64,000 nucleotides of DNA from Pseudodesulfovibrio sediminis (GTDB taxonomy: Bacteria; Desulfobacterota; Desulfovibrionia; Desulfovibrionales; Desulfovibrionaceae), in the NCBI RefSeq assembly GCF_020886695.1, contig NZ_AP024485.1:1869001-1933000 (forward strand), written 5' to 3'. How positions within the stretch are numbered: position 1 is the first letter of the stretch; each line of letters begins with the position of its first letter. The translations under genes and the position numbers were made by a program. Below the pieces are notes generated by a model. The model had not been told where the DNA came from. It made no database searches and saw only the letters and a list, made by a program, of their open reading frames with translations. This document shows positions 49,295-61,945 of the stretch, in pieces.

Positions 49295-49340
49295 GGAGAG
49301 GGGCGCTTCGAGCAGCACGCCTTATAAGAAGATACGGAAG

Positions 49341-49364
49341 GCCGCCCAAGGGGCGGCTTTTTTT
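49341..49364 (+). terminator. Intrinsic terminator of rnhA
   Basis: GCCGCCC-AAG-GGGCGGC (49341-49357) followed by seven T (49358-49364). Confidence 0.88.
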
Positions 49365-49381: not shown

Positions 49382-50038
49382 CGCACCTTCGGCGCGAGAG
49401 GCACTCTTGGGTGCGTGCCGCACCCAAATTGTTCCATGCCCTTCGCGGGCGGCGGTCTCTTTTTGGGGAGCAAAAAGAGACGCAAAAAGCTCCTTACGCT
49501 AGTTTTCCCGCCCACGGTTTGACGGCAAGAAGCTGATCAACTCGGGACGGCTCCATGCTGGGAAAAGTAATGGGAATACCTCTCCGTTCCCCACTGGGGT
49601 GAGTGAGTGCATTCGTATTGCCTTACCGGAGCCGCCGTCCTTTCGTTGTCAGCTTCTAAGCCTTGCAAACAGGGCTAAGCTAGGGCGGATCGCGCGCTAT
49701 TGCATTCGGCATCAGAGGCGGCCCAACAAGTTACCGACAACCTCAAATCCACATCTCACACACCAAAAGTGCACCCTCTTCAACGACGGGCAATCGGAAG
49801 CGGACCTTAGAGCCTGTTTCGGGCGACGCAACGCAGCCCGACCGAGTCTGCATCGCAGACAATCTGTCGGGCAGTGCAGTCGCCTACAGGCTCTTGGGTT
49901 CGCTTCTTCGATCACAGACAAAAAAGCGTTTTTTGCCTCCTTTTTGCCGCTTCGCAAAAAGCAGGTCGCCGTAAAGGCGAAAACAATTTAATAAATTTGG
50001 ATTGGACTTTCACCGCGTAGCGCGCAAAACCACAAAAC
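49382..50038 (+). repeat. Structured dispersed repeat, copy A (about 657 bp)
   Basis: No credible gene fills this gap between converging rnhA and pncC. The sequence is repeated in inverse orientation at 61291-61945, with blocks of near identity and blocks that have diverged. Hairpins seen in order: TTGGGTGC/GCACCCAA (49407-49427); GTCTCTTTTTG/CAAAAAGAGAC (49455-49481); a long-range stem 49528-49541 with 49645-49657 enclosing GGACGGCTCC/GGAGCCG..GTCC (49545-49554, 49628-49640); an 82-nt nested hairpin (49811-49892); CTTTTTGC/GCAAAAAG (49940-49961); TCGCC/GGCGA (49966-49980). Several differences between copies fall in loops. No transposase frame or terminal inverted repeat is visible. Confidence 0.85.
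49811..49892 (+). other. 82-nt nested hairpin identical in both repeat copies
   Basis: Stems from outside in: AGCCTGT/ACAGGCT, GGCGAC/GTCGCC, GCCCGAC/GTCGGGC and GTCTGC/GCAGAC with loop ATC. The reverse complement at 61434-61515 is identical base for base, although flanking parts of the repeat have drifted. Confidence 0.8.
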
Positions 50039-50123
50039 AAAACGCATCTATCCCGCAATACCAGAATAGACCGTCCCACAAGTACTTTTGGCAAACAACA
50101 ATTACCTATCATTTGCCATTGCC

Positions 50124-50155
50124 GCGGCAGCCTGCATTGTAATGCAGACTGCCGC
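50124..50155 (-). terminator. Hairpin downstream of pncC
   Basis: GCGGCAG-CC-TGCATT-GT-AATGCA-GA-CTGCCGC, 14 bp after the pncC stop on the minus strand. The following sequence lacks a T run, so it may stabilise the 3' end rather than terminate by itself. Confidence 0.5.
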
Positions 50156-50168
50156 TTGCCATAAAAAA

Positions 50169-50654
50169 TTAACGAACCACCGAAAGCAACCCGTTGATCG
50201 CTGCCATGACGGATTGTTCCTTGATTTCCTGACGTGTGCCTTCGAAGCTATAACTTTTTGCACGAGTACCACCAGGCCAGGTCCAGGCCATCCAGACTGT
50301 GCCCACAGGTTTTTCAGGCGTGCCGCCCCCAGGGCCGGCTATGCCGGAGATAGCCACGGACACGTTTGCGCCGATAGCCTTGATCACGCCCTCAGCCATC
50401 GCCTTGACAACTGGTTCGGAAACCGCGCCATGCTTTTCCAGAACCATAGGATCCACGCCAAGCAGTTTGCTTTTGACCTCGTAGGCATAGGCTACGACCG
50501 AGCCTGCGTACCATTGAGAGCTGCCGGGGCAGTCCGTGAGAATGCTTGAGAGCAACCCGCCGGTGCAGGATTCAGCGGTTGCCAGCATGTTTTCTTCCAC
50601 GCTCAGGCATTCACCAAGTTCGGCTACGGCCCGTGAAATAAGATAGGTGTCCAT
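50169..50654 (-). CDS. pncC: Nicotinamide-nucleotide amidohydrolase (CinA C-terminal domain type)
   Basis: 161 residues. PncC deamidates NMN to NaMN in pyridine-nucleotide recycling. Landmarks: LATAESCTGGLLSSILTDCPGSSQWYAGSVVAYAYEVKSKLLGV, HGAVSEPVVKAMAEG, VAISGIAGPGGGTPEKPVGTVW. It is the stand-alone form, lacking the N-terminal MoCF-like domain of full CinA. It is divergently placed to a small membrane protein gene and convergent to the structured repeat and rnhA. Confidence 0.93.
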   Translation of the reverse strand: MDTYLISRAVAELGECLSVEENMLATAESCTGGLLSSILTDCPGSSQWYAGSVVAYAYEVKSKLLGVDPMVLEKHGAVSEPVVKAMAEGVIKAIGANVSVAISGIAGPGGGTPEKPVGTVWMAWTWPGGTRAKSYSFEGTRQEIKEQSVMAAINGLLSVVR

Positions 50655-50740
50655 GTATTCCTCCGACTGCTCTTCTACAAAATACCTTAATGGGTTGCAA
50701 TAACCATAAAGACGTTTGTACTGTGTCCGTAGGAGAATCC

Positions 50741-51163
50741 ATGGTCACATCCCCATCCGAGCTTTTTGATCTGGCCTTGAAACGGCATCGCCAGCCGTGG
50801 AACTGGACCCTGCAATTCGCGGGGATCATGTTGCTGGGGCTGACCCTTGCCGCACACAGCTATCTTCTGCTCGCGGCGTCCATGATCCTGTTCGGAGCCG
50901 GTTTTTATGAATTGCACATGCCGGAACCATCGGAGAACCTCTGGTTTCGGTTCGTATCCGGCGGCATCCAGTGGGAAAAGAACTGGGTTGCCACTCCATG
51001 GACATTCGGCAAGATCTTCAAATGCTGCGTTACGCTGGCCTTGCTCGCCGTAACCGTCTGGGCATTGGTGGTGCGTGAGATAGGGACCATTGGGCTGCTC
51101 ATCGGATTCCTGGCTCTGGCCCGTGTGGTGGTGGAGAACAGGGACAGCGGCGTGGAGCCATGA
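50741..51163 (+). CDS. Small multi-pass membrane protein
   Basis: 140 residues with two helices near the N-terminus (LQFAGIMLLGLTLAAHSYLLLAASMILFGAGFY) and two near the C-terminus (CCVTLALLAVTVWALVV, IGTIGLLIGFLALARVVV). AGGAGAATCC directly before the ATG decides the start. No family is recognised; proteins like this are found as hypothetical proteins in Desulfovibrionales. Confidence 0.72.
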   Translation: MVTSPSELFDLALKRHRQPWNWTLQFAGIMLLGLTLAAHSYLLLAASMILFGAGFYELHMPEPSENLWFRFVSGGIQWEKNWVATPWTFGKIFKCCVTLALLAVTVWALVVREIGTIGLLIGFLALARVVVENRDSGVEP

Positions 51164-51242
51164 GCAAACGTAAAATCATGGATGGACACACTCGTTGATG
51201 ATACTTATTTATTCATAGTAAACAACTTTCGGAGGAAACCAT

Positions 51243-51596
51243 ATGAGCGACGACAGCAATTCCTGCAAGCAATGGCTGAATGAAGTCAACTGGGACATGA
51301 TTCACGAAGATGCCGTTACATTGTATCTTGAATGGGGCAACAACAACTACCGCGATGCCATGCGCTCACCGGTAACCACCAGCGGCGAGTATTCCATCTA
51401 TTTCGCCATCGACACCTGGGAAGAACCCAGGGTGGTTCTGATGAAGATGGACAACTACGGGTCCACCATCCTGTGCGCCAAAAAGGTGCCGGACGCCCTG
51501 GCAAAAGAACTGCTCGACGACATCAAGGGGATCAAGGGCATCCTTGAACTGACGCCGTCCATCAAGGAATGGCTCATGAAGGAACTGGACGCCTAA
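51243..51596 (+). CDS. Small cytoplasmic protein, possibly DVU0772-like
   Basis: 117 residues, acidic, with VNWDMIHEDAVTLYLEWGNNN near the N-terminus and YSIYFAIDTWEEPRVVLMKMDNYGSTILCAKKVP in the middle, a mixed alpha/beta fold. The start resembles a small family conserved in Desulfovibrio (DVU0772 family, from memory and uncertain). CGGAGG precedes the ATG. It is monocistronic, ending in a strong terminator. Confidence 0.72.
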   Translation: MSDDSNSCKQWLNEVNWDMIHEDAVTLYLEWGNNNYRDAMRSPVTTSGEYSIYFAIDTWEEPRVVLMKMDNYGSTILCAKKVPDALAKELLDDIKGIKGILELTPSIKEWLMKELDA

Positions 51597-51682
51597 CTCG
51601 GTGTTACGCCAGGAACGGCGCGTTCTCCCTTGTCATTCCGGTTGAGGGTTCGATCTTTCTCGTCAAAACATAGAAAAATACG

Positions 51683-51715
51683 AAAAGGCCGCTTCAAATG
51701 AAGCGGCCTTTTTTT
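51683..51715 (+). terminator. Intrinsic terminator
   Basis: GGCCGCTTC-AAAT-GAAGCGGCC (51687-51708) with flanking A and a seven-T tail (51709-51715). It ends the 51243 gene. Confidence 0.88.
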
Positions 51716-51772
51716 GTGGGGTGTGCAAAGAATGGACAGGAATAAAATAAGTGCAAACAAAGACACATCACT

Positions 51773-51797
51773 TGTGCAATTGACGACACATTGCACA
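51773..51797. promoter_or_regulatory. Upstream dyad, probable enhancer-binding site
   Basis: TGTGCAAT-TGACGACAC-ATTGCACA: perfect 8-bp arms with a 9-bp spacer, centred about 68 bp before the -24 element of a sigma-54 promoter. Additional GTGCAA half-sites lie at 51723 and 51751. A second palindrome, ATTTCAA-CATA-TTGAAAT (51818-51835), lies between dyad and promoter. Confidence 0.6.
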
Positions 51798-51850
51798 TCG
51801 GTTGCAGGTTCAACAAAATTTCAACATATTGAAATAACAGGATTAGATGT

Positions 51851-51867
51851 TTGGCACGCTCTATGCT
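51851..51867 (+). promoter_or_regulatory. Sigma-54 (RpoN) promoter
   Basis: TTGGCACG-CTCT-ATGCT. The -24 GG (51853-51854) and -12 GC (51865-51866) are separated by exactly 10 bp and nearly every consensus base is present. Transcription should begin near 51877. Confidence 0.75.
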
Positions 51868-51878
51868 TTATGCAGACC

Positions 51879-52067
51879 ATGATTGATGTTGTCACTGTCA
51901 CTCTCATCATCCTGGGCGTCGCGTTGTTGCGACGCTCCCTCCTCACCGTCCCGGACGTCGCCCCCGGCGTCCGGGTAGACGGTGAAGAATTCGGCATAAT
52001 GGCCCCGGTTCCGGTATTCTCCAGAGCGCAAACCCCCATATTGCTCAGGAAGAAACGGACCAGATAA
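51879..52067 (+). CDS. Possible small membrane protein (62 aa)
   Basis: Reads MIDVVTVTLIILGVALLRRS and continues with a Pro/Val-rich middle and a basic end (LLRKKRTR). One membrane helix is possible at residues 3-17. Third codon positions favour C and G as in neighbouring genes, which supports coding. Against it, the frame has no ribosome site and would begin within a few bases of the sigma-54 start of transcription. It overlaps the candidate small RNA; only one of the two may be real. Confidence 0.3.
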   Translation: MIDVVTVTLIILGVALLRRSLLTVPDVAPGVRVDGEEFGIMAPVPVFSRAQTPILLRKKRTR

Positions 52068-52153
52068 GGGCCTTAAGCATAGACCATACCTCTCTTGAAA
52101 CACCGTTTTCAACCTAGAAACCCCCTCCTCGAATGCAGACCTCTAACCCCTCT

Positions 52154-52179
52154 AAAAGGGCCGCGAAAGCGGCCCTTTT
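52154..52179 (+). terminator. Intrinsic terminator
   Basis: AAAAGGGCCGC-GAAA-GCGGCCCTTTT (52154-52179), a GNRA-type tetraloop hairpin with a T tail. It ends the sigma-54 transcript before the histidine kinase gene. Confidence 0.85.
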
Positions 52180-52292
52180 ACTTTGATTTGTGTAACAAGC
52201 TGCACCTTTTCTTTGCGCACTACTTGTCATGAACCATGGGCGAGGGTATGGTTTATCCAATTATCGGTCTCACAGGGACGTAAAGGGTAGCC

Positions 52293-53702
52293 ATGAGCGA
52301 AGCACATTTCCCGAACGAAGTCGACGATCTGGATCACCTGGATCTGAATGATGACGAACGAATAGACTATGTTGTCAGTCGCATAGAGGCTAAACTCCTT
52401 GATTACGACGGCTACAATTTTTCCATGCGCCAAATCCGCGCACTGAATATCTTCTTTGAGCTGGCTCAGGAACTGCGGGATCGGGAGATGTTCTATGCCG
52501 TCTGCATGGCCATACCACGCGCCCTGCTCAGACTTGAATCCTCCATCTACATTCTGGAAGATGATGACACCTTTTCCCTGGCCGGATGTACGACCGGCCA
52601 TTGCGACAAATCGGTCACACGGACCTGGGATGACCAGTTTACCGACAAGCTGGTCATCTCGGACAACCAGATGTTCATCCCCATTCAGGGCAACCCGGAA
52701 TACAACGACAAGCTCCCCTTCCGACCGCCGCACAACATCATTGGCAACTTCGTCCTGCATCCCTGCAACAACCTTGAGGGACATGCGCGCCTGTTTTTGG
52801 AAAAGTATGTCAATCGCGTGGGTTTCCAACTGCATCACCGCATGGTCGGTGCGCGGAACCGTGAGCACATCGCTTTCATCAAATCCATGGTGCAGGATAT
52901 CGGCCATAACGTCATCGTGCCGAACATGTACTTCAAGCTCTATTTCATTAGGTTGAAGAGACAGATTGAGCAGCTCCATCAATCCACGGCCAGCGTGCTC
53001 AGCATCCTGAATCAAAGCTCGCAGAAGGAAAGCGTGACCGAGGGGAACAAGCTGGCCCGGATAGCGTCATCCATCGAGACGCAGTATCAGGAAATTTACA
53101 GCCATTACGAATCCACATCCATGTTTCTGGAGACGCTGCTCCGTCGGCGTCACTTCGAGGAAGGGCGGTATGTCCTGGACAAGCGGGAGGTCAACCTGCG
53201 TACGGCGATCATGGAACCGCTGGTGGAACGATTCCACAAGCGGTTCAAGGAACGCAGGATCACCATCAACTTCGCGCTAGGCGGTGCACCGGATCAGATG
53301 GTCCGCCTGATAATAGACAGAGGGCTGATTTCCCAGGTCTTTGACAACCTGTTTTCCAACGCCCTTAAATACACTGAAACCGTGACCCTGGACGATGGCC
53401 GGCGAGGCAAATTCGTCTCGTATGGCTGGAAGATCATCAAGGATTATTTTGGCAATGAAAAGCCCGGCATCCGTTTGTGGGTCACATCCACAGGCCGTCC
53501 GCTCGACCTTGAAGATCCCATGGAAGTCTTCAAGCCGGGGTTTCGCGCCGACAACGTGGCCCGGGAATCCGGCACGGGCCGAGGGTTGTATTTCGTTCGT
53601 CAGGTAGTGGAACTCCACAACGGTCAGGTGGGCTATTCGCACTCGGAAAACAGCAACCAGTTTTATCTCATCCTGCCGTTCGAGCAGGAAATAGCGGGAT
53701 AG
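52293..53702 (+). CDS. Orphan cytoplasmic sensor histidine kinase
   Basis: 469 residues with no membrane segment. A GAF-like N-terminal sensing region is possible (to about residue 190). An atypical H-box follows in VQDIGHNVIVPNMYF, then a coiled-coil dimerisation stretch. The HATPase domain has the N-box VFDNLFSNALKYTE, a D-box replaced by TSTGRPLD, FKPGFRADNVARESGTGRGLYFVRQVV as F/G boxes, and ends LILPFEQ. No response regulator is adjacent, so its partner is elsewhere. Confidence 0.82.
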   Translation: MSEAHFPNEVDDLDHLDLNDDERIDYVVSRIEAKLLDYDGYNFSMRQIRALNIFFELAQELRDREMFYAVCMAIPRALLRLESSIYILEDDDTFSLAGCTTGHCDKSVTRTWDDQFTDKLVISDNQMFIPIQGNPEYNDKLPFRPPHNIIGNFVLHPCNNLEGHARLFLEKYVNRVGFQLHHRMVGARNREHIAFIKSMVQDIGHNVIVPNMYFKLYFIRLKRQIEQLHQSTASVLSILNQSSQKESVTEGNKLARIASSIETQYQEIYSHYESTSMFLETLLRRRHFEEGRYVLDKREVNLRTAIMEPLVERFHKRFKERRITINFALGGAPDQMVRLIIDRGLISQVFDNLFSNALKYTETVTLDDGRRGKFVSYGWKIIKDYFGNEKPGIRLWVTSTGRPLDLEDPMEVFKPGFRADNVARESGTGRGLYFVRQVVELHNGQVGYSHSENSNQFYLILPFEQEIAG

Positions 53703-53771
53703 CGCGCTCCGAAACCGGTTGTTCTCGCGAAAAACGGATAATAGCGAAAAATGGCGAGCAGGAAATTCCGA

Positions 53772-54878
53772 CTACTCGGCTGTCGCTGTCTGCGCCAACA
53801 TCCGTCGATAATACGACAGACAGAGACAGGTCATGGGCAGCGCGATGAGCAGGCCGAGAAAACCCAGCAGTTTGCCCCAGACAGACAGGGACAACAGGAT
53901 GAGCCACGGCGAAAGCCCAAGGCTCTCCCCCTGAATTTTCGGTACGAGAAAGACCTCCTGAATCGTCTGGACAATAGCCATGACAGCCACCACCAGCCCG
54001 ACGCCGATCCAGACGGACTCGCCAGCCTCAAGAGAGTCCAGAGCCGCCAGCAGTACGGCCGGAACCATGCCCACAGCACCGAGGTAAGGGGCGATGTTCA
54101 GTATGCCGATAATCATGCCGAGTACGATGCCCAGAGGAAGGTCGATGAGGGTAAAGCCTATGGACATGAGAACGCCCACAATGAGCGCGATGGAAATCTG
54201 ACCACGAAAATAGAGACTCATGGTTTTTTCGAACTCGCCGAGGAAGCCGGTCACGGAGTCGCGGATTCCGGCAGGCAGGTATTCCTGCCAATTCTCCTTA
54301 ATCTTGCCGAAGTCAGCCAGCAGAAAAACGAGATACAGAATGATGATGCCCAGACCGAGGAAGCCTGCCAGGAAGCTTGCCGTCCCCTGGGCCAGCCCTT
54401 TGACGCCGGGGATTATGGTGTCCAGAAAGGATTGAGCCGCGTCAGCCGCTCCTGTCGAGGAAAAGAGGTCGCGTACTTCCTGCTGGGAGGCGATGTTGCG
54501 CAGCCACTGCCAGACATCCGGCGGCAGATGCTTCGAGACCTTGGTCGCAAACTCGGCGTTGTTAACCAGCTCGGACAACACACGGCCCATATGGGTCAGC
54601 TCGGTAGCCATCATGGGCACAATCACCATGAACACCCCCACGATGAACGCTACAAGACCGATCAGGGTCACGGCGACTGCAATGCCACGGCTTTTGACAT
54701 ATTTCTGGATAAAACAGGTCAGCGGATTGAGCAGATATGCCACGAGCAGGGCCACCACAAAGGGTATCAGCACATTGGAGAGAAAACCCAGAAGCCAGAT
54801 AAGGCCGAGAAAGAACCCGACCCCAAGGAGCAAGCGGACCACGGAGTCCAGCGTGTACGGCTTGTCGGAAGTAAACAT
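53772..54878 (-). CDS. AI-2E family transporter
   Basis: 368 residues with about eight membrane helices, including LIWLLGFLSNVLIPFVVALLVAYLLNPL near the N-terminus, the membrane-associated region around GQISIALIVGVLMSIGFTLIDLPLGIVLGMIIGILNIAPYLGAVGMVP, and the final LLSLSVWGKLLGFLGLLIALPMTC. The family includes the E. coli TqsA and Na+/H+-type members; the substrate varies. GGAGG stands 5 bases before the ATG. Confidence 0.92.
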   Translation of the reverse strand: MFTSDKPYTLDSVVRLLLGVGFFLGLIWLLGFLSNVLIPFVVALLVAYLLNPLTCFIQKYVKSRGIAVAVTLIGLVAFIVGVFMVIVPMMATELTHMGRVLSELVNNAEFATKVSKHLPPDVWQWLRNIASQQEVRDLFSSTGAADAAQSFLDTIIPGVKGLAQGTASFLAGFLGLGIIILYLVFLLADFGKIKENWQEYLPAGIRDSVTGFLGEFEKTMSLYFRGQISIALIVGVLMSIGFTLIDLPLGIVLGMIIGILNIAPYLGAVGMVPAVLLAALDSLEAGESVWIGVGLVVAVMAIVQTIQEVFLVPKIQGESLGLSPWLILLSLSVWGKLLGFLGLLIALPMTCLCLSYYRRMLAQTATAE

Positions 54879-54946
54879 GAATCCTCCTGCAGGAGATGAA
54901 ATGTCATCCTTCCCTACCAGTCCGGCTGCATTTATTCAATGTTCCT

Positions 54947-55021
54947 CATACGCTCTTTAACGATATACAGGTATTTGCACATGGTTTCGGGGCACGAAAC
55001 AGCGTTGCGTGCGAGCGTATG
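54947..55021. other. 75-nt dyad structure in serB / AI-2E intergenic gap
   Basis: Perfect 9-bp outer arms CATACGCTC (54947-54955) and GAGCGTATG (55013-55021) enclose GCAC/GTGC and the hairpin GTTTCG-GGGCA-CGAAAC. Either strand could fold. It may be a processing site between serB and the AI-2E gene or a small RNA. No T run follows on either strand. Confidence 0.4.
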
Positions 55022-55089
55022 GTGCGGGCGCGGAAAAAAGGGAAGCGAACGTCGAAGGCCGGGAACGTGTTCCGCTGAACGGACTTCGA

Positions 55090-56298
55090 CTACACGACCT
55101 CGCGGTCACGAACGCCGATGAGATAGAGGATGGTGTCCAGACCAAGGGTGGAGATGGACTGACGCGCACCCTTCTTGACCTTGGGCTTTGCATGGAAGGC
55201 GATACCAAGCCCGGCCAGGTTGAGCATGGGCAGATCGTTGGCGCCGTCACCCACGGCAATGACCTGTTGCAGCGAAATTTTTTCAATATCTGCGATGGAT
55301 TGAAGCAGCTCCGCTTTCTTGTTGGCGTCCACGATATCGCCGACGGCCTTGCCTGTGAGTTTGCCGTCGATGATCTCCAGCTCATTGGCGTAGACATAAT
55401 CAACGCCGAATTTTTCCTGAAGGATGTGGCCGAAGTAGGTGAATCCGCCGGACAGGATGGCGATCTTGTATCCCACGTTCTTGAGGTTGGTGATGAGCTT
55501 TTCCGCCCCCTCGGTCATGGGCAACCGGTCGGCGACTGTCTGGAGAACGGATTCGTCCAGCCCTTCAAGGAGTGACAACCGTTTCTTGAGCGACTGCTTG
55601 AAATCAAGCTCGCCGCGCATGGCCGCCTCGGTGATGGCCGCCACTTCATCGCCCACGCCCGCTTCCTTGGCCAGCTCGTCGATGACTTCTGCCTGGATGA
55701 GGGTGGAGTCCATGTCAAACGCGACCAGACGGCGGTTGCGGCGAAAGATGTTGTCTTCCTGAAAGGCGATGTCCACCATGAGGTCGGCGGATATTTCCAG
55801 GAACCGGGAGCGAATATCCGCGATGTCCCGAGGCGTGCCGCGCACGGTGAACTCCACGCAGCCGCGTGAACATTCATAGTCGTTGCAATCAAGAGGCACA
55901 CGCCCGGAGAGCCTGTGGATGGTGTCGATGTTCATGCCGGATTCGGCGATGACTTCGGTGATGGCCGAGATCTGCCGAGATGACACGGACCGCGCCAGCA
56001 GAGTGATGATGTAGCGCGCCTTGTTGGCGTCCCCTACCCACGAGGAGTATTCCTCTTCATTGAGCGGGTGGAGCTTCATGGTCACGCCCAGTTCATGGGC
56101 CTTGAACAGCAGGTCTTTCAGAACCGGCTGGGAATTGGACGGGAGTCTGATCAGAATGCCCAAGGTCAGAAAATTATGAATGACCACCTGGCCGATGTCG
56201 AGCACGTCCACATCATACCCGGCCAACACTTCAGACAACTCCGCAGTCAGCCCGGGCCTGTCGCCACCAGTCACATGTATCAATATGATCTTTTCCAT
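55090..56298 (-). CDS. serB: Phosphoserine phosphatase with N-terminal ACT domains
   Basis: 402 residues. Two ACT-like domains (about 1-80 and 95-175: IILIHVTGGDRPGLTAELSEVL, YIITLLARSVSSRQISAITEVI) precede a HAD domain. HAD motif I is AFDMDST (D195, D197), motif II is AILSGGFTYFG, and motif III/IV is VIAVGDGANDLPMLNLAGLGIAFHAKP. It makes L-serine from phosphoserine; the ACT domains probably sense an amino acid. Such long SerB forms are known in Actinobacteria and many proteobacteria. Confidence 0.95.
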   Translation of the reverse strand: MEKIILIHVTGGDRPGLTAELSEVLAGYDVDVLDIGQVVIHNFLTLGILIRLPSNSQPVLKDLLFKAHELGVTMKLHPLNEEEYSSWVGDANKARYIITLLARSVSSRQISAITEVIAESGMNIDTIHRLSGRVPLDCNDYECSRGCVEFTVRGTPRDIADIRSRFLEISADLMVDIAFQEDNIFRRNRRLVAFDMDSTLIQAEVIDELAKEAGVGDEVAAITEAAMRGELDFKQSLKKRLSLLEGLDESVLQTVADRLPMTEGAEKLITNLKNVGYKIAILSGGFTYFGHILQEKFGVDYVYANELEIIDGKLTGKAVGDIVDANKKAELLQSIADIEKISLQQVIAVGDGANDLPMLNLAGLGIAFHAKPKVKKGARQSISTLGLDTILYLIGVRDREVV

Positions 56299-56375
56299 GA
56301 GTATTCTTCTCTCCCGTTCGAACTCAGGCGGACCTTCTCATATATCGGCCTGGTCGTAAATGGTGTGGGGACGAC

Positions 56376-56408
56376 AAAAAAGCCCAAACCGGTTACAGGT
56401 TCGGGCTC
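56376..56408 (-). terminator. Intrinsic terminator
   Basis: AGCCC-AA-ACC ... GGT-T-CGGGCT hairpin followed on the minus strand by six T (56376-56381). It ends the small gene at 56444. Confidence 0.75.
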
Positions 56409-56443
56409 TTAAATAGCAATAGGATTGACCGGACGAGTCTGCC

Positions 56444-56605
56444 CTATTTCTTTTCTTTTTTTTCGGCTTTTGCTTCACGAATGGATGCAGTGCCTCTGGT
56501 CAGCGAACGGAGGTGACACTGGTTGACCAGTTCCACTTCGCGCAGCTTCTCTGCAGTGAATGCAACGTATTTGATGCCTCTGTCTTCAATGACCAATTCG
56601 TACAT
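56444..56605 (-). CDS. Small basic protein of 53 residues downstream of bactofilin
   Basis: Begins MYELVIEDRGIKYVAFTAEK, continues with LREVELVNQCHLRSLTRG and ends in a Lys/Glu-rich tail (AEKKEKK). It is a beta-hairpin start followed by one helix, of no recognised family. The ribosome site AGAGGG lies 5 bases before the ATG, and the gene starts 12 bp after the bactofilin stop on the same strand. A proper terminator follows. It may act with bactofilin or be a small nucleic-acid-binding protein; neither is shown. Confidence 0.6.
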   Translation of the reverse strand: MYELVIEDRGIKYVAFTAEKLREVELVNQCHLRSLTRGTASIREAKAEKKEKK

Positions 56606-56617
56606 ACTTTTCCCTCT

Positions 56618-57085
56618 TTACGCTTCTGTATCGTCAGATCCGGTCTTGGCGACGTCGGATTCGGTTGTCTCGGGTTGGGCGGGTTTGCCCCCAAAGTTAG
56701 CGGACACCACTTTGGTTTTTCCAACGACAGCGCTAGAGCCGGTCATGGAGACCGCACCTTCAAGCACCGCGCCCTTTTCCACCACCAGGGATGGTGATGT
56801 CAGGCTGCCGTTGAGAACGCTCGTCTTTTCCAGCACAGCGTGTTCCTTGACGTACACATCGCCGCGGATTTCGCCGCAGGAGGTCAGTCGGCCCACATGG
56901 ACCGTTCCCTCGATGAAGGCCTTGCGTCCGAGAACCAGATCGCCATCAGTGGAGATCTCACCCTCGAAACGTCCGTCAATGCGAACCGTGCCAACAAAAT
57001 CAAGTTTGCCTCTATATTCAGTGCCCACGCCCAGAAAGGCGTTCAGCTCGGAGTGATCAGAATTTTTCTTTGAAAACATACCCAT
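56618..57085 (-). CDS. Bactofilin
   Basis: 155 residues. The central bactofilin core is a right-handed beta-helix of short repeats (FVGTVRIDGRFEGEISTDGDLVLGRKAFIEGTVHVGRLTSCGEIRGDVYVKEHAVLEKTSVLNGSL), with unordered tails on both sides. Bactofilins polymerise into non-nucleotide filaments that shape cells or place polar structures. The start at 57085 has GAGG 6 bases upstream; an ATG two codons later is also possible. It lies just upstream of and divergent to the cNMP-motAB operon. Confidence 0.92.
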   Translation of the reverse strand: MGMFSKKNSDHSELNAFLGVGTEYRGKLDFVGTVRIDGRFEGEISTDGDLVLGRKAFIEGTVHVGRLTSCGEIRGDVYVKEHAVLEKTSVLNGSLTSPSLVVEKGAVLEGAVSMTGSSAVVGKTKVVSANFGGKPAQPETTESDVAKTGSDDTEA

Positions 57086-57221
57086 GGTAGACCTCACAGT
57101 TAATTGGGAAACGGTATCTCCCCCGCCACCCGAAAACCATTCAAAATAGCAAAAGGACTTTTCCTATACCCTCACCTTCCTTTGATTGCCACTTTTTTTT
57201 GCCCCGAATTTCAGGAGGAAC

Positions 57222-57266
57222 ATGGAAGAAACCCGCTGCAAACCTGCAATTTATGCGAACTTCTAA
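57222..57266 (+). CDS. Possible 14-residue leader peptide
   Basis: A perfect AGGAGG site stands 3 bases before an ATG that opens a 14-codon frame (MEETRCKPAIYANF), about 110 bp before the cNMP-FliG-like gene. It may be a chance match or a leader peptide; no attenuator follows. Confidence 0.2.
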   Translation: MEETRCKPAIYANF

Positions 57267-57379
57267 TTGTCCATTATGCCAGTTGGTTGTACATTTTCTG
57301 AAAAGTGGGTACCCTTTGAAAGGACAAAGTTGGACGGGAAAGTCTTTGCCCGCAGTCAGACACGGGAGAAGGGAGAGGC

Positions 57380-58546
57380 ATGACTACAAGCATTCAGAAT
57401 ATAAAATCCTATCATAAAGGCCGTTCCATCTATAAAGAAGGACAGAACGGAACCGTCGCCTACATGATCCAGAAAGGCTCGGTCACGTTGTATAAGACCG
57501 TGAACGGCAAGAGGATCCTTGTTGATACCCTCGGTCGGGGCGAGATCTTCGGCGAGATGTCCGTGCTGAGCAAAACAGAACGCATGGAAAGTGCCGAAGC
57601 CGCGGAATACTGCGATCTCATGGTACTGACAGAGCAGGTCATTCAGGCCATGGTCGCCAAATGCCCAAAAACCATCCAGCATCTGACCAAGCTGCTGATA
57701 AAGCGCGTGCGCAAGGCCGGAGATGTGAACCCCAACCGCACGCACAAGAATTCCTTTCTATCCATCTGTCGTATTCTCGAAATGACCCATCGCTGTCATG
57801 TCTCCATGCGGGCCGCAGAGGCCAAGCGTATCCGGGGTCACAAGTTCGGCATCGCCATCACCGAGTTTTCCAAACAGGTCAAGGATATCCTGCTGGTCTC
57901 ACAGCTTGAAATCGACCAGACCCTGGACCAGTTGGCCGCCCTCAAGATTGTCACCCTGACAACCCAGGGATCGGGCAAGGCGTTCTCCGAGCGCTACGTC
58001 AAGGTCAATGACATGGAGAATTTCTTTCAGGTGGCGGCCAATCTGCACAAGGAGTTGTCCAAGTCGGACGCCCTGGAGCCGGAGCTGGAATACATCGACA
58101 TCCATGATTTTGCCGACGAGGTCGAAGCCCAGAGCGAAATTCTCTACAAGAAGATGGCCAACATGGAGATCCCTGACACCCTGTTTTTCTTCCACAAGAG
58201 TTCGGCGCTCGCCTGGGCCGGAGACCAGCCCGAAGAGTTCTTCAAGCGGGTAAAGCGCAAGAAAAAGAAGATCGCCGACCTCGAAGACGTCAACGACATC
58301 GTGTTCGTGGACAACGCCACCTGCAAGGACGTGTTCGCCAAGCTCGGGTACTACAAGCTCGGTGTGCTCCTCGCCATAGCCGAACAGGAAGCCCGGCAAA
58401 AGATCATCGGCAACCTGTCCAAGAAAATCGCCACCATCGTGCAGGATGAGGCCAAGGAACGGGGAACCCCCGACTCCACCGAGGCCGAGGATGTCTCTGA
58501 TGAGCTCATCGAACTGATCAAGGTCACCAAAGGGGTTTCCATCTAA
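57380..58546 (+). CDS. Cyclic-nucleotide-binding protein with FliG-like C-terminal domain
   Basis: 388 residues. Residues 10-110 are a cNMP-binding domain (YMIQKGSVTLYKTVNGKRILVDTLGRGEIFGEMSVLSK, with the GE-MS phosphate-binding cassette). A winged-helix-like middle follows (about 135-210, DILLVSQLEIDQTLDQLAAL). Residues 285-365 resemble the FliG C-terminal domain (IVFVDNATCKDVFAKLGYYKLGVLLAIAEQEARQKIIGNLSKK). It overlaps motA by one base (TAATG). A messenger-sensing component at the motor is an attractive but untested reading. Confidence 0.75.
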   Translation: MTTSIQNIKSYHKGRSIYKEGQNGTVAYMIQKGSVTLYKTVNGKRILVDTLGRGEIFGEMSVLSKTERMESAEAAEYCDLMVLTEQVIQAMVAKCPKTIQHLTKLLIKRVRKAGDVNPNRTHKNSFLSICRILEMTHRCHVSMRAAEAKRIRGHKFGIAITEFSKQVKDILLVSQLEIDQTLDQLAALKIVTLTTQGSGKAFSERYVKVNDMENFFQVAANLHKELSKSDALEPELEYIDIHDFADEVEAQSEILYKKMANMEIPDTLFFFHKSSALAWAGDQPEEFFKRVKRKKKKIADLEDVNDIVFVDNATCKDVFAKLGYYKLGVLLAIAEQEARQKIIGNLSKKIATIVQDEAKERGTPDSTEAEDVSDELIELIKVTKGVSI

Positions 58547-59319
58547 TGAATATCGCCACCATCTTCGGGATTATCGCCGGTATCTTTGTCCTCTGCGCGG
58601 CCACCTTCGCGGCCACGGATTCGGTTCAGGTCTTCCTGAACGGTCCGGGTCTCGCCATCGTACTCGGCGGAACCATCGCGGCCACGTTCATCTGCTATCC
58701 CCTACGGGAGGTCATGCGCGTCATGGGGCTGTTCGTGTCCGCTTTCCGGGCCGAGGAGCTGCCCATCGGCGATTACATTCGGGATATCGTCACCATCTCC
58801 AAGACAGTGAGCAAGAAGGGCGAAGAGCATCTGGAAAAATCGCTCAAGTCCATGGAAAACGAATTTCTGCGCGACGGGCTGCAGATGCTGCTGGACGGCT
58901 ACTCCAAACAGGAGCTGGAGGAAATCCTCAACAACCGCATCCAGCAGTATCACGAACAGGAGTCCAATGCCGCCGGCATCTATCGGACCATGGCCGCCCT
59001 GTCTCCCGCCTTCGGCATCATCGGTACGCTCATCGGCCTGATCGCCATGATGCAGACCATGGGCGACGACATCACCCGCATCGGCCCGGCCATGGCCACG
59101 GCCCTGACCACCACCCTGTACGGCGCGCTGTTCGCCAACATGATCTATACGCCCATTGCCACCAAGGTCGAACGGCGTGTGGAGGAGCGCACCATCCTGA
59201 TGTGCGTTATCCGCGACGGTATCCTGTTCATCAAGGACAAGACGCCCGCGCCTATCGTCATGGACAAGCTCAAGGGGTACCTACCCCCGAGCAAGTGGTC
59301 TTCCATCGGCGCCAGATAG
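58546..59319 (+). CDS. motA: Flagellar motor stator protein MotA
   Basis: 257 residues with four membrane segments. N-terminal ATIFGIIAGIFVLCAATFAA and FLNGPGLAIVLGGTIAATFICYPL, and the C-terminal pair YRTMAALSPAFGIIGTLIGLIAMMQTM and AMATALTTTLYGALFANMIYTPIATKV match the MotA/ExbB channel. The large cytoplasmic loop between carries the rotor-contact region. MotA forms the ion channel with MotB. It overlaps the cNMP-FliG-like gene by one base and is 9 bp before motB. Confidence 0.94.
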   Translation: MNIATIFGIIAGIFVLCAATFAATDSVQVFLNGPGLAIVLGGTIAATFICYPLREVMRVMGLFVSAFRAEELPIGDYIRDIVTISKTVSKKGEEHLEKSLKSMENEFLRDGLQMLLDGYSKQELEEILNNRIQQYHEQESNAAGIYRTMAALSPAFGIIGTLIGLIAMMQTMGDDITRIGPAMATALTTTLYGALFANMIYTPIATKVERRVEERTILMCVIRDGILFIKDKTPAPIVMDKLKGYLPPSKWSSIGAR

Positions 59320-59328
59320 GACTGACAC

Positions 59329-60042
59329 ATGCAGTTCAACGGCAAATTCATTCCCAAGCGCAAGACACCCGCGCCTGACGGCGGCTGGCAGTTGACCCTG
59401 GCGGACATGATGACGCTCATTCTCTGCTTTTTCGTCATCATGCTGGCTGTGTCCAAGATCGACCCCAACCGCTATGAAGCCGTGTCCGATATCATGGCCG
59501 AAGCCATGAAGGGCAAGGCCGCGCCCAGTAAAAGGGCAAGCGAACCCGTGCAGGCTGTGGTGGAGAAAAAGCAGAAGAATCTTTTTGAACTGCAATTGGA
59601 GCTGGCCAAGCTCATCGGCCGAGAATCCGAGGCCGTGCGATTGAAGTTGCGGCCCGATGCCGTGGCCATCAATCTGCAAGGCGGGGTGTTCTTCAAGCTC
59701 GGCAGTGCAGACCTGACCGTTGAGGCCGTGACCATCCTCGACAAGCTGGCCAAGCCGCTCACAGACGCACACTACAAGCTGACCATCGAAGGCCACTCCG
59801 ACAACCTCGCCATCAAGTCGGCCCAGTTTCCGTCCAACTGGGAGCTGTCCAGTGCCCGCGCTTCCAGCGTGGCCCGGTTCTTTATCGCTCAGGGATTCCC
59901 CAAGGGGGACATACGGGTCATGGGATTGGCCGACACCGAGCCGTTGGCCCCCAACACGGACAAGGCAGGGAACAACATCCCGACCAATCAGGCCAAAAAT
60001 CGTCGGGTGATCATTCTGGTCCGGCCGATTTCAGGACGTTAA
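59329..60042 (+). CDS. motB: Flagellar motor stator protein MotB
   Basis: 237 residues. One membrane helix (LADMMTLILCFFVIMLAV) holds the channel Asp, D26. The periplasmic OmpA/MotB domain (LKLRPDAVAINLQGGVFFKLGSADL, TIEGHSDNLAIKS, NWELSSARASSVARFF, NRRVIILV) binds peptidoglycan. With MotA it makes one stator. It overlaps the converging acetyltransferase gene by 4 bases. No other flagellar genes are in the window. Confidence 0.94.
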   Translation: MQFNGKFIPKRKTPAPDGGWQLTLADMMTLILCFFVIMLAVSKIDPNRYEAVSDIMAEAMKGKAAPSKRASEPVQAVVEKKQKNLFELQLELAKLIGRESEAVRLKLRPDAVAINLQGGVFFKLGSADLTVEAVTILDKLAKPLTDAHYKLTIEGHSDNLAIKSAQFPSNWELSSARASSVARFFIAQGFPKGDIRVMGLADTEPLAPNTDKAGNNIPTNQAKNRRVIILVRPISGR

Positions 60043-60473
60043 TCCTGATCAACGACCTTGCCCATGCTGAGGATCTTTTCCATGGCAAAGCCATTCGCCT
60101 CATAAAACCGGATGACGTCCACATTGGACTCGCGAACCTGCAGGTTGATTTTGAAGCAACCGCGTTTTGTGAGTGCGTTCTCGGCATGGTGCAGGAGCAT
60201 TGACCCGATGCCATGTTTGCGCTGATCAGGATGCACGGCCAATGAGTAAATCCATCCTCGGTGGCCGTCGTATCCGGCCATGATCGTTCCGATAACCGTG
60301 TCGTTCTCAACGGCCACGAAAAAGAGATCGTCCACCGCTCGCTTCCGGTCTATGGCGAATGCCGGATCATTATACGATGCCAGGGGATCAAAGACCATCT
60401 TCCACAGGTCAATCACCGCCTGCCGGTGGACCGCGTTGTCAAAGGGGAGGATAAGTGTATCGTTGGTATCCAT
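60039..60473 (-). CDS. GNAT family N-acetyltransferase
   Basis: 144 residues. The acetyl-CoA motif A is WIYSLAVHPDQRKHGIGSMLL, motif B is NLQVRESNVDVIRFYEANGFAMEKI, as in YpeA/RimI-like members. The start at 60473 is preferred over 60545 as it gives the family length. The substrate is unknown. It converges on motB. Confidence 0.85.
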   Translation of the reverse strand: MDTNDTLILPFDNAVHRQAVIDLWKMVFDPLASYNDPAFAIDRKRAVDDLFFVAVENDTVIGTIMAGYDGHRGWIYSLAVHPDQRKHGIGSMLLHHAENALTKRGCFKINLQVRESNVDVIRFYEANGFAMEKILSMGKVVDQD

Positions 60474-60556
60474 AGAGGGAGTGTGCCCCGGCAGCATTTG
60501 TCCTGTCCAGTGGTTCATTGCTTGACGCGCATTCACTCCTCTCATAGATTCACACC

Positions 60557-61228
60557 ATGAAACGAAGCGAAATCAATGCACTGATTGCCGATGCCAAGGA
60601 ATTCTATGAATCCTTCCTGTTCAAGCTCCCACCGTGGGCCTTTTGGGGGCCTGACGACTGGAAAGGCACTGGAGATTCCGAGGTCGTCCGCAACCAGCTC
60701 GGCTGGGACTTGACGGATTATGGCGCTGGCGACTTTGAAAAGCGCGGTCTGATTCTGTTTACCATCCGCAACGGCAACCTGGCTGCCGGGGACAAGAAGC
60801 AGTACGCTGAAAAGATCATGATTGTCCGCGAGAACCAGATCTGCCCCATGCATTTCCATTGGTCCAAGACCGAGGACATCATCAACCGGGGCGGAGGCAA
60901 TCTCGTCATCGAGCTGTATGGCTCCACTCCTGATGAGGAGTTGGGCAAGGAGCCGATCACCGTCATAGTGGATGGGTTTGCGCGCACGGTGGAGCCCGGC
61001 GGCACGGTAGTCTTGACGCCCGGTGAATCAATTTTCCTTGAGCAAGGGATGTACCACCGCTTCTACGGTGAACCCGGCAAGGGGAAGGTGCTGGTCGGCG
61101 AGGTGTCGTCAGTGAATGATGATAATACTGACAACCGGTTTCATAAAGAGCAGGCGCGGTTCCCCGACATTGAGGAGGATGAAGCTCCGCTTCACCTGTT
61201 GTGTACGGATTACCCGAAATATATTTAA
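60557..61228 (+). CDS. D-lyxose ketol-isomerase-like cupin
   Basis: 223 residues, single cupin barrel. The metal ligands fit the D-lyxose isomerase family: MHFHWSKTEDIINRGGGNLVIELYG gives two His and Glu, and the third His is in EQGMYHRFYGE. The N-terminal LLIADAKEFYESF-type helix and FKLPPWAFW are also typical. It interconverts D-lyxose and D-xylulose in studied members. It is monocistronic with a strong terminator. Confidence 0.85.
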   Translation: MKRSEINALIADAKEFYESFLFKLPPWAFWGPDDWKGTGDSEVVRNQLGWDLTDYGAGDFEKRGLILFTIRNGNLAAGDKKQYAEKIMIVRENQICPMHFHWSKTEDIINRGGGNLVIELYGSTPDEELGKEPITVIVDGFARTVEPGGTVVLTPGESIFLEQGMYHRFYGEPGKGKVLVGEVSSVNDDNTDNRFHKEQARFPDIEEDEAPLHLLCTDYPKYI

Positions 61229-61242
61229 GCTTTTCCATGTAA

Positions 61243-61277
61243 GAAGGCCGCCTGAGAGATCTGGCGGCCTTCTTTTT
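61243..61277 (+). terminator. Intrinsic terminator
   Basis: A perfect 10-bp stem GAAGGCCGCC/GGCGGCCTTC (61243-61252, 61263-61272) followed by five T (61273-61277). It ends the cupin gene. Confidence 0.88.
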
Positions 61278-61290
61278 GTGGTGATGTTTT

Positions 61291-61945
61291 TTTTGTGGTT
61301 TTGCGCGCTACGCGGTGAGAGTCCAATCCAAATTTATTAAATTGTTATCGCCTTTACGGCGACCTGCTTTTTGCGAAGCGGCAAAAAGGAGGCAAAAAAC
61401 GCTTTTTGTCTGTGAGCGAGGAAGAGTCCCCAAAGCCTGTAGGCGACTGCACTGCCCGACAGATTGTCTGCGATGCAGACTCGGTCGGGCTGCGTTGCGT
61501 CGCCCGAAACAGGCTCTAAGGTCCGCTTCCGATTGTTCGTCGTTGAAGGGGGTGCGCCATTGGTGTGGGAGGTTTAGATTTGAGGCTGTCGACACCCTGT
61601 TGGGCAACCTTAGATACCGACTACAATCTGCTCAAGTCGCCCTAGATTAGCCCTGTTTGCAAGGGCTTAGAAGCTGACAACGAAAGGACGACGGCTCTGG
61701 TAAGGCAATACGAATGCACTCACTCACCCCAGCGGGGAACGGAGAGGTATTCCCATTACTTTTCCCAGCATGGAGCCGTCCCGAGTTGATCAGCTTCTTG
61801 CCGTCAAACCGTGGGCGGGCAAACTAGCGCAAGGAGCTTTTTGCGTCTCTTTTTGCTCCTCAAAAAGAGACCGCCGCCCGCGAAGGGCATGGAATGCTTT
61901 GGGTGGCGTCTGTCACCCAACAATGGCTCTCGCTCCAAAGGTGCA
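61291..61945 (-). repeat. Structured dispersed repeat, copy B (about 655 bp)
   Basis: Inverse of the repeat at 49382-50038 and almost the same length. It lies between the converging cupin and aspartate aminotransferase genes, with a terminator at each side. The conserved hairpins are GTCTCTTTTTG/CAAAAAGAGAC (61845-61871) and the identical 82-nt nested hairpin (61434-61515). The loop sequences of several other hairpins differ from copy A. Open frames inside share RACFGRRNAARPSLHRRQSV-type peptides between the copies, but these are translations of the hairpin and not proteins. Confidence 0.85.
61434..61515 (-). other. 82-nt nested hairpin, second identical copy
   Basis: Reverse complement of 49811-49892 without a mismatch. 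Confidence 0.8.

Follow-up and report, generated by a model that had tools for sequence, protein, structure and literature searches.

A family of intergenic hairpin elements concentrated around the replication origin in Pseudodesulfovibrio sediminis and related genomes

Palindromic repeats dispersed through intergenic space are commonly viewed as selfish DNA. The closest described kinds, repetitive extragenic palindromic (REP) sequences, bacterial interspersed mosaic elements (BIMEs) and REPINs (REP doublets forming hairpins), are presented in the passages of PMC3116915 and PMC3733652 that deal with them as intergenic, dispersed and palindromic, often arranged in inverted doublets, and predicted to form single-strand hairpins. 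Single REPs are given there as 20-40 bp long (PMC3733652) or elsewhere as 20-60 nt (in the relevant part of PMC3390384), and the same sections of PMC3116915 and PMC3733652 describe the REP doublets of SBW25 as randomly distributed in extragenic space. Here we analyse a window of 64,000 nucleotides from the chromosome of Pseudodesulfovibrio sediminis (NZ_AP024485.1, positions 1,869,001 to 1,933,000), in which two inverted copies of a composite hairpin element lie at 49382..50038 on the plus strand (copy 1) and 61291..61944 on the minus strand (copy 2). These elements are likewise intergenic, dispersed, palindromic and hairpin-forming by prediction, but their hairpins measure ~90-130 nt and sit in ~300-bp halves, their spread centres on the origin, and no Y1 transposase accompanies them consistently. 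Given the unit size, the origin-centred spread, the conservation of sites and the lack of a consistent transposase, we regard them as REPIN-like in working, with REPIN/BIME as the closest kind, and not as members of that class.

The two window copies are part of a larger family. A BLAST search of the host genome (G000, a single contig of 3.764 Mb; other genomes are numbered in the same way) aligned copy 1 with copy 2 at 91% identity over query positions 2-656 (E 7e-263), bearing out the initial annotation in its view of inverted copies over nearly the whole length. That annotation had also called them a pair: both copies are real, but the host genome holds 24 family matches, made up of 13 near-full copies and fragments, which reduce to 15 loci after merging hits within 6 kb and which all lie between 1.697 and 3.111 Mb. 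We tentatively read the family, at a probability of roughly 0.45, as vertically inherited, intergenic DNA hairpins of the chromosome that act as origin-domain sites and are kept alike by recombination. The evidence for this reading includes the position of the elements relative to the origin, sites shared between species and covariation in the hairpin stems.

Sampled at 20 stretches of the host genome, the GC skew changes sign from negative to positive near 2.37-2.39 Mb and becomes negative again between 0.4 and 0.6 Mb. The first of these changes, which holds a DnaA-family gene at 2379205, was taken as the origin, and all host loci fall within -0.68 to +0.73 Mb of it. Of 120 loci counted in eight single-contig genomes, 116 are no farther from the origin than half its distance to the terminus, and both sides of it are occupied; Kolmogorov-Smirnov (KS) p values range from 2e-6 to 7e-4 per genome. 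For this count hits within 6 kb were merged, lengths were approximate for four genomes, G041 was left out, and the lists for G006, G002 and G000 include fragments or A-only sites (A and B being the two modules of the element described below). Skew sign in six further genomes, G023 not among them, is negative at 33 of 34 loci to the left and positive at 37 of 39 to the right of the equivalent DnaA-type gene, and of the positions listed with a model of module A, 29 of 30 in G019 and 27 of 31 in G041 respect the half-distance limit (few neighbours merged). The immediate surroundings of the origin are empty in six of the eight genomes, where an element-free arc of ~380-570 kb, with no locus within ~160 kb, is flanked by elements on both shoulders; the arc was not seen in G010 and G023. 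The orientation of elements relative to replication (68 of 115, p 0.06) was not significant.

At least two DnaA-family genes occur in each of 14 genomes, a lower-scoring one of 436-466 aa and a higher-scoring one of 458-491 aa. The skew origin sits at the lower-scoring gene in G000 and six relatives; the higher-scoring gene (458-491 aa), considered as an origin mark, was contradicted by the GC skew. The assemblies of G000, G043 and G045 begin at the higher-scoring gene, so that the start of the sequence record is not the replication origin, and the two genes of the host (G000:C1:491-967 and G000:C1:2379205-2379678) lie outside the window. Strict counts of DnaA boxes were uninformative. Adjacency to rRNA or tRNA genes was considered as a cause of clustering and rejected: the 20 array loci inspected from G010, G002 and G006 contained no tRNA, and an Rfam search of 15 of the 20 gave a c-di-GMP riboswitch only. 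A c-di-GMP-I-GGC riboswitch lies near one G002 element array (L092:7523-7597).

Other dispersed sequences are known to be placed with respect to the origin. ParB/parS, Noc and SlmA sites are dispersed and lie preferentially on the origin side or away from the terminus, a preference that the elements share, but those sites are short and bound as duplex DNA whereas the elements are long hairpin clusters. REPs of the P. fluorescens group, in the portion of PMC3390384 that treats them, are unevenly spread with deserts, mark older parts of the genome and are typically absent near the replication origin; the elements are also unevenly spread but centre on the origin, despite the element-free arc in six of eight genomes.

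Many of the sites are common to several species. Among 89 loci of seven species (16 in G000, 7 in G002, 9 in G010, 16 in G043, 18 in G050, 19 in G051 and 4 of ~16 in G006), with gene calls made from a simple codon score, 129 of the 175 flanking genes are orthologous to a gene next to an element in another of the species, involving 81 of the 89 loci; the chance expectation of ~1-3% for random sites is a rough estimate without a computed control. G043, G050 and G051 are close, with shared flanking proteins at 93-98% median identity, and supply much of the 129, yet the more distant G000, G002 and G010 still have common sites (77-87% flanking-protein identity). Median identities of flanking proteins across site-sharing species are 74-89%, and the B hairpins of G000, G002 and G010 reach a mean identity of only 66-77% with the best-matching other species of the seven.

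Genes that neighbour elements in two species stay equally far from the origin, also where the arm differs: between G043 and G050, 16 of 18 are on the opposite arm with r 1.00, and across the 12 species pairs listed the correlation of origin distances ranges from 0.59 to 1.00. Where the two flanks of an array are split between two arrays of another species, the arrays are on opposite arms in 11 of 14 cases and on one arm in 3, and in 10 of the 11 their origin distances agree within 40 kb; the 14 cases are not independent, several being one event viewed from both sides. The clearest exchange of flanks is between the arrays at -725 and +728 kb in G043 and those at -731 and +734 kb in G051. Such opposite-arm, equal-distance splits place the elements at the breakpoints of origin-symmetric inversions. 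Ribosomal RNA operons are sites of inversions of this kind through recombination between copies, and the elements resemble them as similar dispersed copies on both arms that exchange, but are noncoding and not rRNA. Recombination rates in Salmonella are uncorrelated with origin distance, according to the part of PMC8262849 concerned with them, and recombination alone does not predict confinement to the origin side.

Within each genome the copies resemble one another. For 71 of 94 B copies the nearest relative is another B copy of the same genome, and when G043 is set against G051, the same-site counterpart is closer than every other copy in both genomes in one of nine site pairs. One G051 locus has a G043 counterpart that lacks ~1,145 bp while keeping the leftmost hairpin and showing no target duplication, and on these two grounds the near-empty G043 site reads most simply as a loss.

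The stems of both large hairpins covary. In an alignment of 30 sequences from 9 genomes, 97.2% of the 34 predicted pairs of the B hairpin are standard pairs, compared with 31-46% when partners are slid; 88 cells are changed on both sides, against 24 in shuffles, such changes occur at 15 of the 34 pairs, and all five measures exceed all 500 shuffles. The A hairpin (alignment A4, 35 hairpins) has two-sided changes at 8 of 15 predicted pairs, with the invariance of its ends due in part to a selection pattern that fixed parts of both. Aligning further copies, the check that the initial annotation had proposed, thus sustains its claim of structural constraint. A T-T mismatch in the B stem is kept in 28 of 30 sequences and an unpaired T in the A stem in 35 of 35, these 35 rows having been picked by a pattern that allows T or C there; the two features argue against a simple perfecting of palindromes. 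B also contains an invariant TAC, with a C before it in every row except one; it reads GTA(G) on the other strand and lies inside the stem.

The thirteen full host copies align over ~650 bp, and similarity stops outside this unit except for a leader common to some. A full unit consists of two hairpin clusters, module A and then module B. A runs from a small hairpin through a T-run/A-run hairpin to a large hairpin, and B from a large hairpin through a T-run/A-run hairpin to small GC hairpins; hairpin lengths are 91-133 nt, with ~120 nt for the large B hairpin, and each half spans ~300 bp. The host has one locus with two full tandem copies and two with a full and a partial copy. Tandem units in two G010 arrays are spaced 362-377 bp apart, with one interval of 465 bp, and eight of nine G010 arrays place all A modules first and B last (for example AABBB or AAAAB), while the ninth has B among the As; two G007 loci read A-B-A-B. 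At three G019 loci inspected by eye the layout is a mirror-image A...A doublet, REPIN-like but on a much larger scale, and the B model finds nothing in that genome. The host A-B unit resembles such a doublet at the T-run hairpin only. There the reverse complement of A scores 32 against B, above the maximum of 26 in 300 shuffles, and B is on this account plausibly a diverged inverted A. Two mirror-image doublets of G019 (L252 and L253), ~8 kb apart, look by eye like mutual reverse complements, an inverted pair of the type found in the window.

Of 36 genomes in the genus, 20 match the B model and 27 match the A model, and under stricter filters an order-wide search with the A model matched 20 of 199 genomes, all of this same genus, one of 43. 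Copy numbers from genome profile searches are lower bounds, as only part of the first-look candidates was scored per genome (94-150 per search in the surveys with the A and B models, 14 and 17 in two others). A B-pattern sweep of named genomes, which may leave out near relatives, had as its sole match the metagenome-assembled genome MIC098Bin4 of the Desulfovibrionaceae, a record from which we infer that the carrier genus probably belongs to that family. Phage and plasmid searches gave no match to the element, and a literature search found no paper on the hairpin-repeat family.

In the window, copy 1 occupies the gap between rnhA (+) and cinA (-), and copy 2 the gap between a D-lyxose isomerase gene (+) and an aminotransferase gene (-), so that each lies between converging genes as annotated; a function look-up of ten window proteins identified these four neighbours, the first two as RNase HI and CinA. 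On the plus strand of copy 1, module A comprises the small hairpin TTGGGTG/CACCCAA at its left end (49407..49427) and the T-run/A-run hairpin GTCTCTTTTTG...CAAAAAGAGAC (49455..49481), both drawn from sequence and folding, and the large hairpin AGAAGCTGATC...GTCAGCTTCTA (49528..49658), supported by stem covariation across species. Module B follows on the same strand with its large hairpin (49796..49907; stem covariation and the conserved T-T mismatch), a T-run/A-run hairpin (49936..49965; folding, and the match to the reverse complement of A) and the small GC hairpin TCGCC...GGCGA (49966..49980; folding and a terminator-type scan). Copy 2 has its large B hairpin at 61418..61536 and its large A hairpin at 61668..61798, both on the minus strand and matched by the respective models (the A match being G000:C1:1930668-1930798 minus). 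The loop differences reported between the copies are all present: TTGGGTG-loop-CACCCAA has CGTGCCG versus ACAGACGC, GTCTCTTTTTG...CAAAAAGAGAC has GGGAG versus AGGAG, and a CCCC/GGGG stem has ACT versus GCT. On both strands the element folds far better than shuffles (z -8.3 and -7.8; 20 shuffles each).

A short way upstream of copy 1 lies the leader motif TTCGAGCAGC (49307..49316, plus strand), which recurs in element orientation upstream of five further copies (L005, L006, L008, L009 and L012) and inverted downstream of L009. We rejected it as a general terminal repeat, its occurrence being confined to 6 of the 24 own-genome stretches (L001-L024, partly overlapping). Coding function was also rejected: when 12 other copies are set against copy 1, 42 of the 43 indel runs have lengths that are not multiples of three, in agreement with the annotated lack of a conserved frame. 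Elsewhere in the window, a gene at 57380-58546 (+) encodes a 388-aa protein with a cyclic-nucleotide-binding domain and a FliG C-terminal domain; the gene directly downstream is of the MotA/ExbB family, and the gene beside that one is presumably MotB-like.

How such elements might act can be sketched from these observations, an origin-domain function being the most likely one. The hairpins would form in DNA, as cruciforms in supercoiled gaps, often between convergent genes, or as single strands at replication forks. A chromosome-associated protein would then bind them as origin-domain sites, and recombination between copies would keep the copies alike; where copies stand inverted on the two arms, it would produce origin-symmetric inversions. 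Selection would retain elements at many sites, none of them essential alone. A palindromic repeat has been tied to nucleoid folding through cruciform DNA in E. coli, in the account of naRNA4 from REP325 with HU given in part of PMC6907758, and the likeness lies in the palindromic repeat and the cruciform idea; the elements described here are known from DNA sequence alone.

Several observations weigh against the reading as inherited origin-domain sites. Conservation of position could come from plain inheritance of inert DNA, and scarcity in the terminus half might come from faster gene turnover there. With the A model, origin bias is not significant in G004 (7 of 11 loci within half distance, KS p 0.48), and among the A-model matches listed there are outliers beyond half distance in G006 (2 of 10), G023 (1 of 17, at 0.74 of the origin-terminus distance) and G051 (1 of 18). 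On the downstream side of the aminotransferase gene next to copy 2, element sequence occurs in 7 of 17 genomes (G000, G002, G006, G019, G041, G043 and G050) and is absent from 10; copies thus come and go, and no site is essential by itself. No partner protein emerged, none having been searched for. At the aminotransferase site of G050 (L231), the left arm of the large A hairpin is joined to the right arm of the large B hairpin, and this fused remnant is probably a deletion product.

Selfish DNA of the REPIN type, with doublets copied through single strands by a transposase acting in trans, structure kept for the enzyme, and an origin bias arising from copy number or target choice, is possible though on the unlikely side. 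Y1-type enzymes often require a mismatch or bulge in the hairpin stem, and the conserved T-T mismatch and unpaired T would suit such an enzyme, as would the inverted doublets of G019 and the presence/absence differences between the close G043 and G051. The REP (RAYT, REP-associated tyrosine transposase) enzyme is the difficulty. A Y1_Tnp (PF01797) match occurs in 6 of 13 carriers (G000, G005, G007, G010, G011 and G013), that of the host being a single weak match at 2.139 Mb, ~32 kb from the nearest element; the other 7 (G001, G002, G003, G004, G006, G008 and G015) have none, which makes RAYT mobility unlikely in general, whereas G012 and G014, matched by neither the A nor the B model, have two each. 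The elements share with REPs and REPINs their many dispersed intergenic palindromes, but are not ~20-60 nt units with a GTAG/CGTC foot tag, the GTA(G) lying inside the stem. They also differ from miniature inverted-repeat transposable elements: in 60-base ends of 13 host copies at least 11 of 200 shuffles scored as well in each, so that, as the initial annotation stated, there is no terminal inverted repeat. At the one near-empty site no target-site duplication was seen, but this site may itself be a loss with its left end kept. The annotation's suggestion of a non-autonomous element is in keeping with copies that are dispersed and come and go, and less so with positions conserved across species and with the seven carriers lacking a Y1 match; the phage and plasmid searches without a match likewise speak against selfish spread.

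A further proposal, which we hold to be doubtful, is an address system in which hairpin sites on both arms would mark the origin half, be read by a chromosome-organising factor, be kept alike by recombination with one another and in this way also set the positions of arm exchange.

The elements could instead be bidirectional transcription barriers in which the outer GC hairpin and the inward T-run of each half stop transcripts arriving from either gene. The mirror layout would fit, as would the neighbourhood: of 86 loci, 40 lie between convergent and 7 between divergent genes, while 21 run along and 18 against co-directional genes. In both window copies the minus strand of B contains a terminator-like stem, and another stem-loop of this kind lies between rnhA and copy 1 (49336..49362, plus strand). 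Shielding by terminators, as annotated, held at both ends of copy 1, towards rnhA and towards cinA, and on the aminotransferase side of copy 2, all flagged by the terminator scan, but not on the isomerase side, which went unflagged even though a GGCCGCC...GGCGGCC palindrome is visible there. Each gap has three terminator-like sites where 1.5 and 1.3 are expected (sd 1.3-1.4), and some of them belong to the flanking genes; mismatch counts, given below, show no wobble on the strand of inbound transcripts, and confinement to the origin side would go unexplained. We therefore consider a barrier function improbable.

The initial annotation favoured a large structured RNA, and a family of such noncoding RNA genes would account for the stem covariation. 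A first count on the predicted structure gave 110 G-T to 5 A-C mismatches on the A-to-B strand, but the structure had been chosen on that same strand, which biases the count, and we rejected the RNA-strand claim drawn from it. A strand-neutral count on the alignment gave 131 G-T to 82 A-C in 110 distinct sequences (from 124 sense matches, with identical rows dropped and some left out by hand, and a further 33 matches, 32 antisense and one partial, left out), with few columns driving the difference and its sign mixed between genomes. Counting 1x1 mismatches without an alignment gave 53 G-T to 48 A-C in 110 B regions and 20 to 36 in 82 A regions; in 58 of the 110 and 42 of the 82 the plus strand folds more stably than the minus strand, so neither strand is consistently favoured. 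A scan of the two window gaps found no sigma-70-like promoter, and elements run with and against co-directional neighbours about equally often (21 versus 18). Rfam had no match to the elements at gathering thresholds, and at E up to 1 the copy-1 region drew four weak hits far below threshold, so the annotated placement outside the standard classes stands as far as Rfam is concerned. With neutral counts giving no consistent strand signal we claim no RNA; an RNA gene family is highly improbable, and a DNA-level hairpin element fits better.

Template-switch mutation can produce covariation. Inert repeats with palindromes maintained by template-switch correction and not by selection, and with inversions such as any repeats would cause, could thereby covary and would be alike within genomes, but the conserved stem mismatch and bulge would be erased and same-site retention across species at 74-89% flanking-protein identity would not be expected, which makes this explanation barely credible.

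A family found mainly on the origin side, retained at many sites throughout a genus even as its sequence drifts jointly in each genome, and placed at the breakpoints of origin-symmetric inversions would connect repeat DNA with the layout of the chromosome in a testable way. Gene order in the carrier genus could also change by this route.

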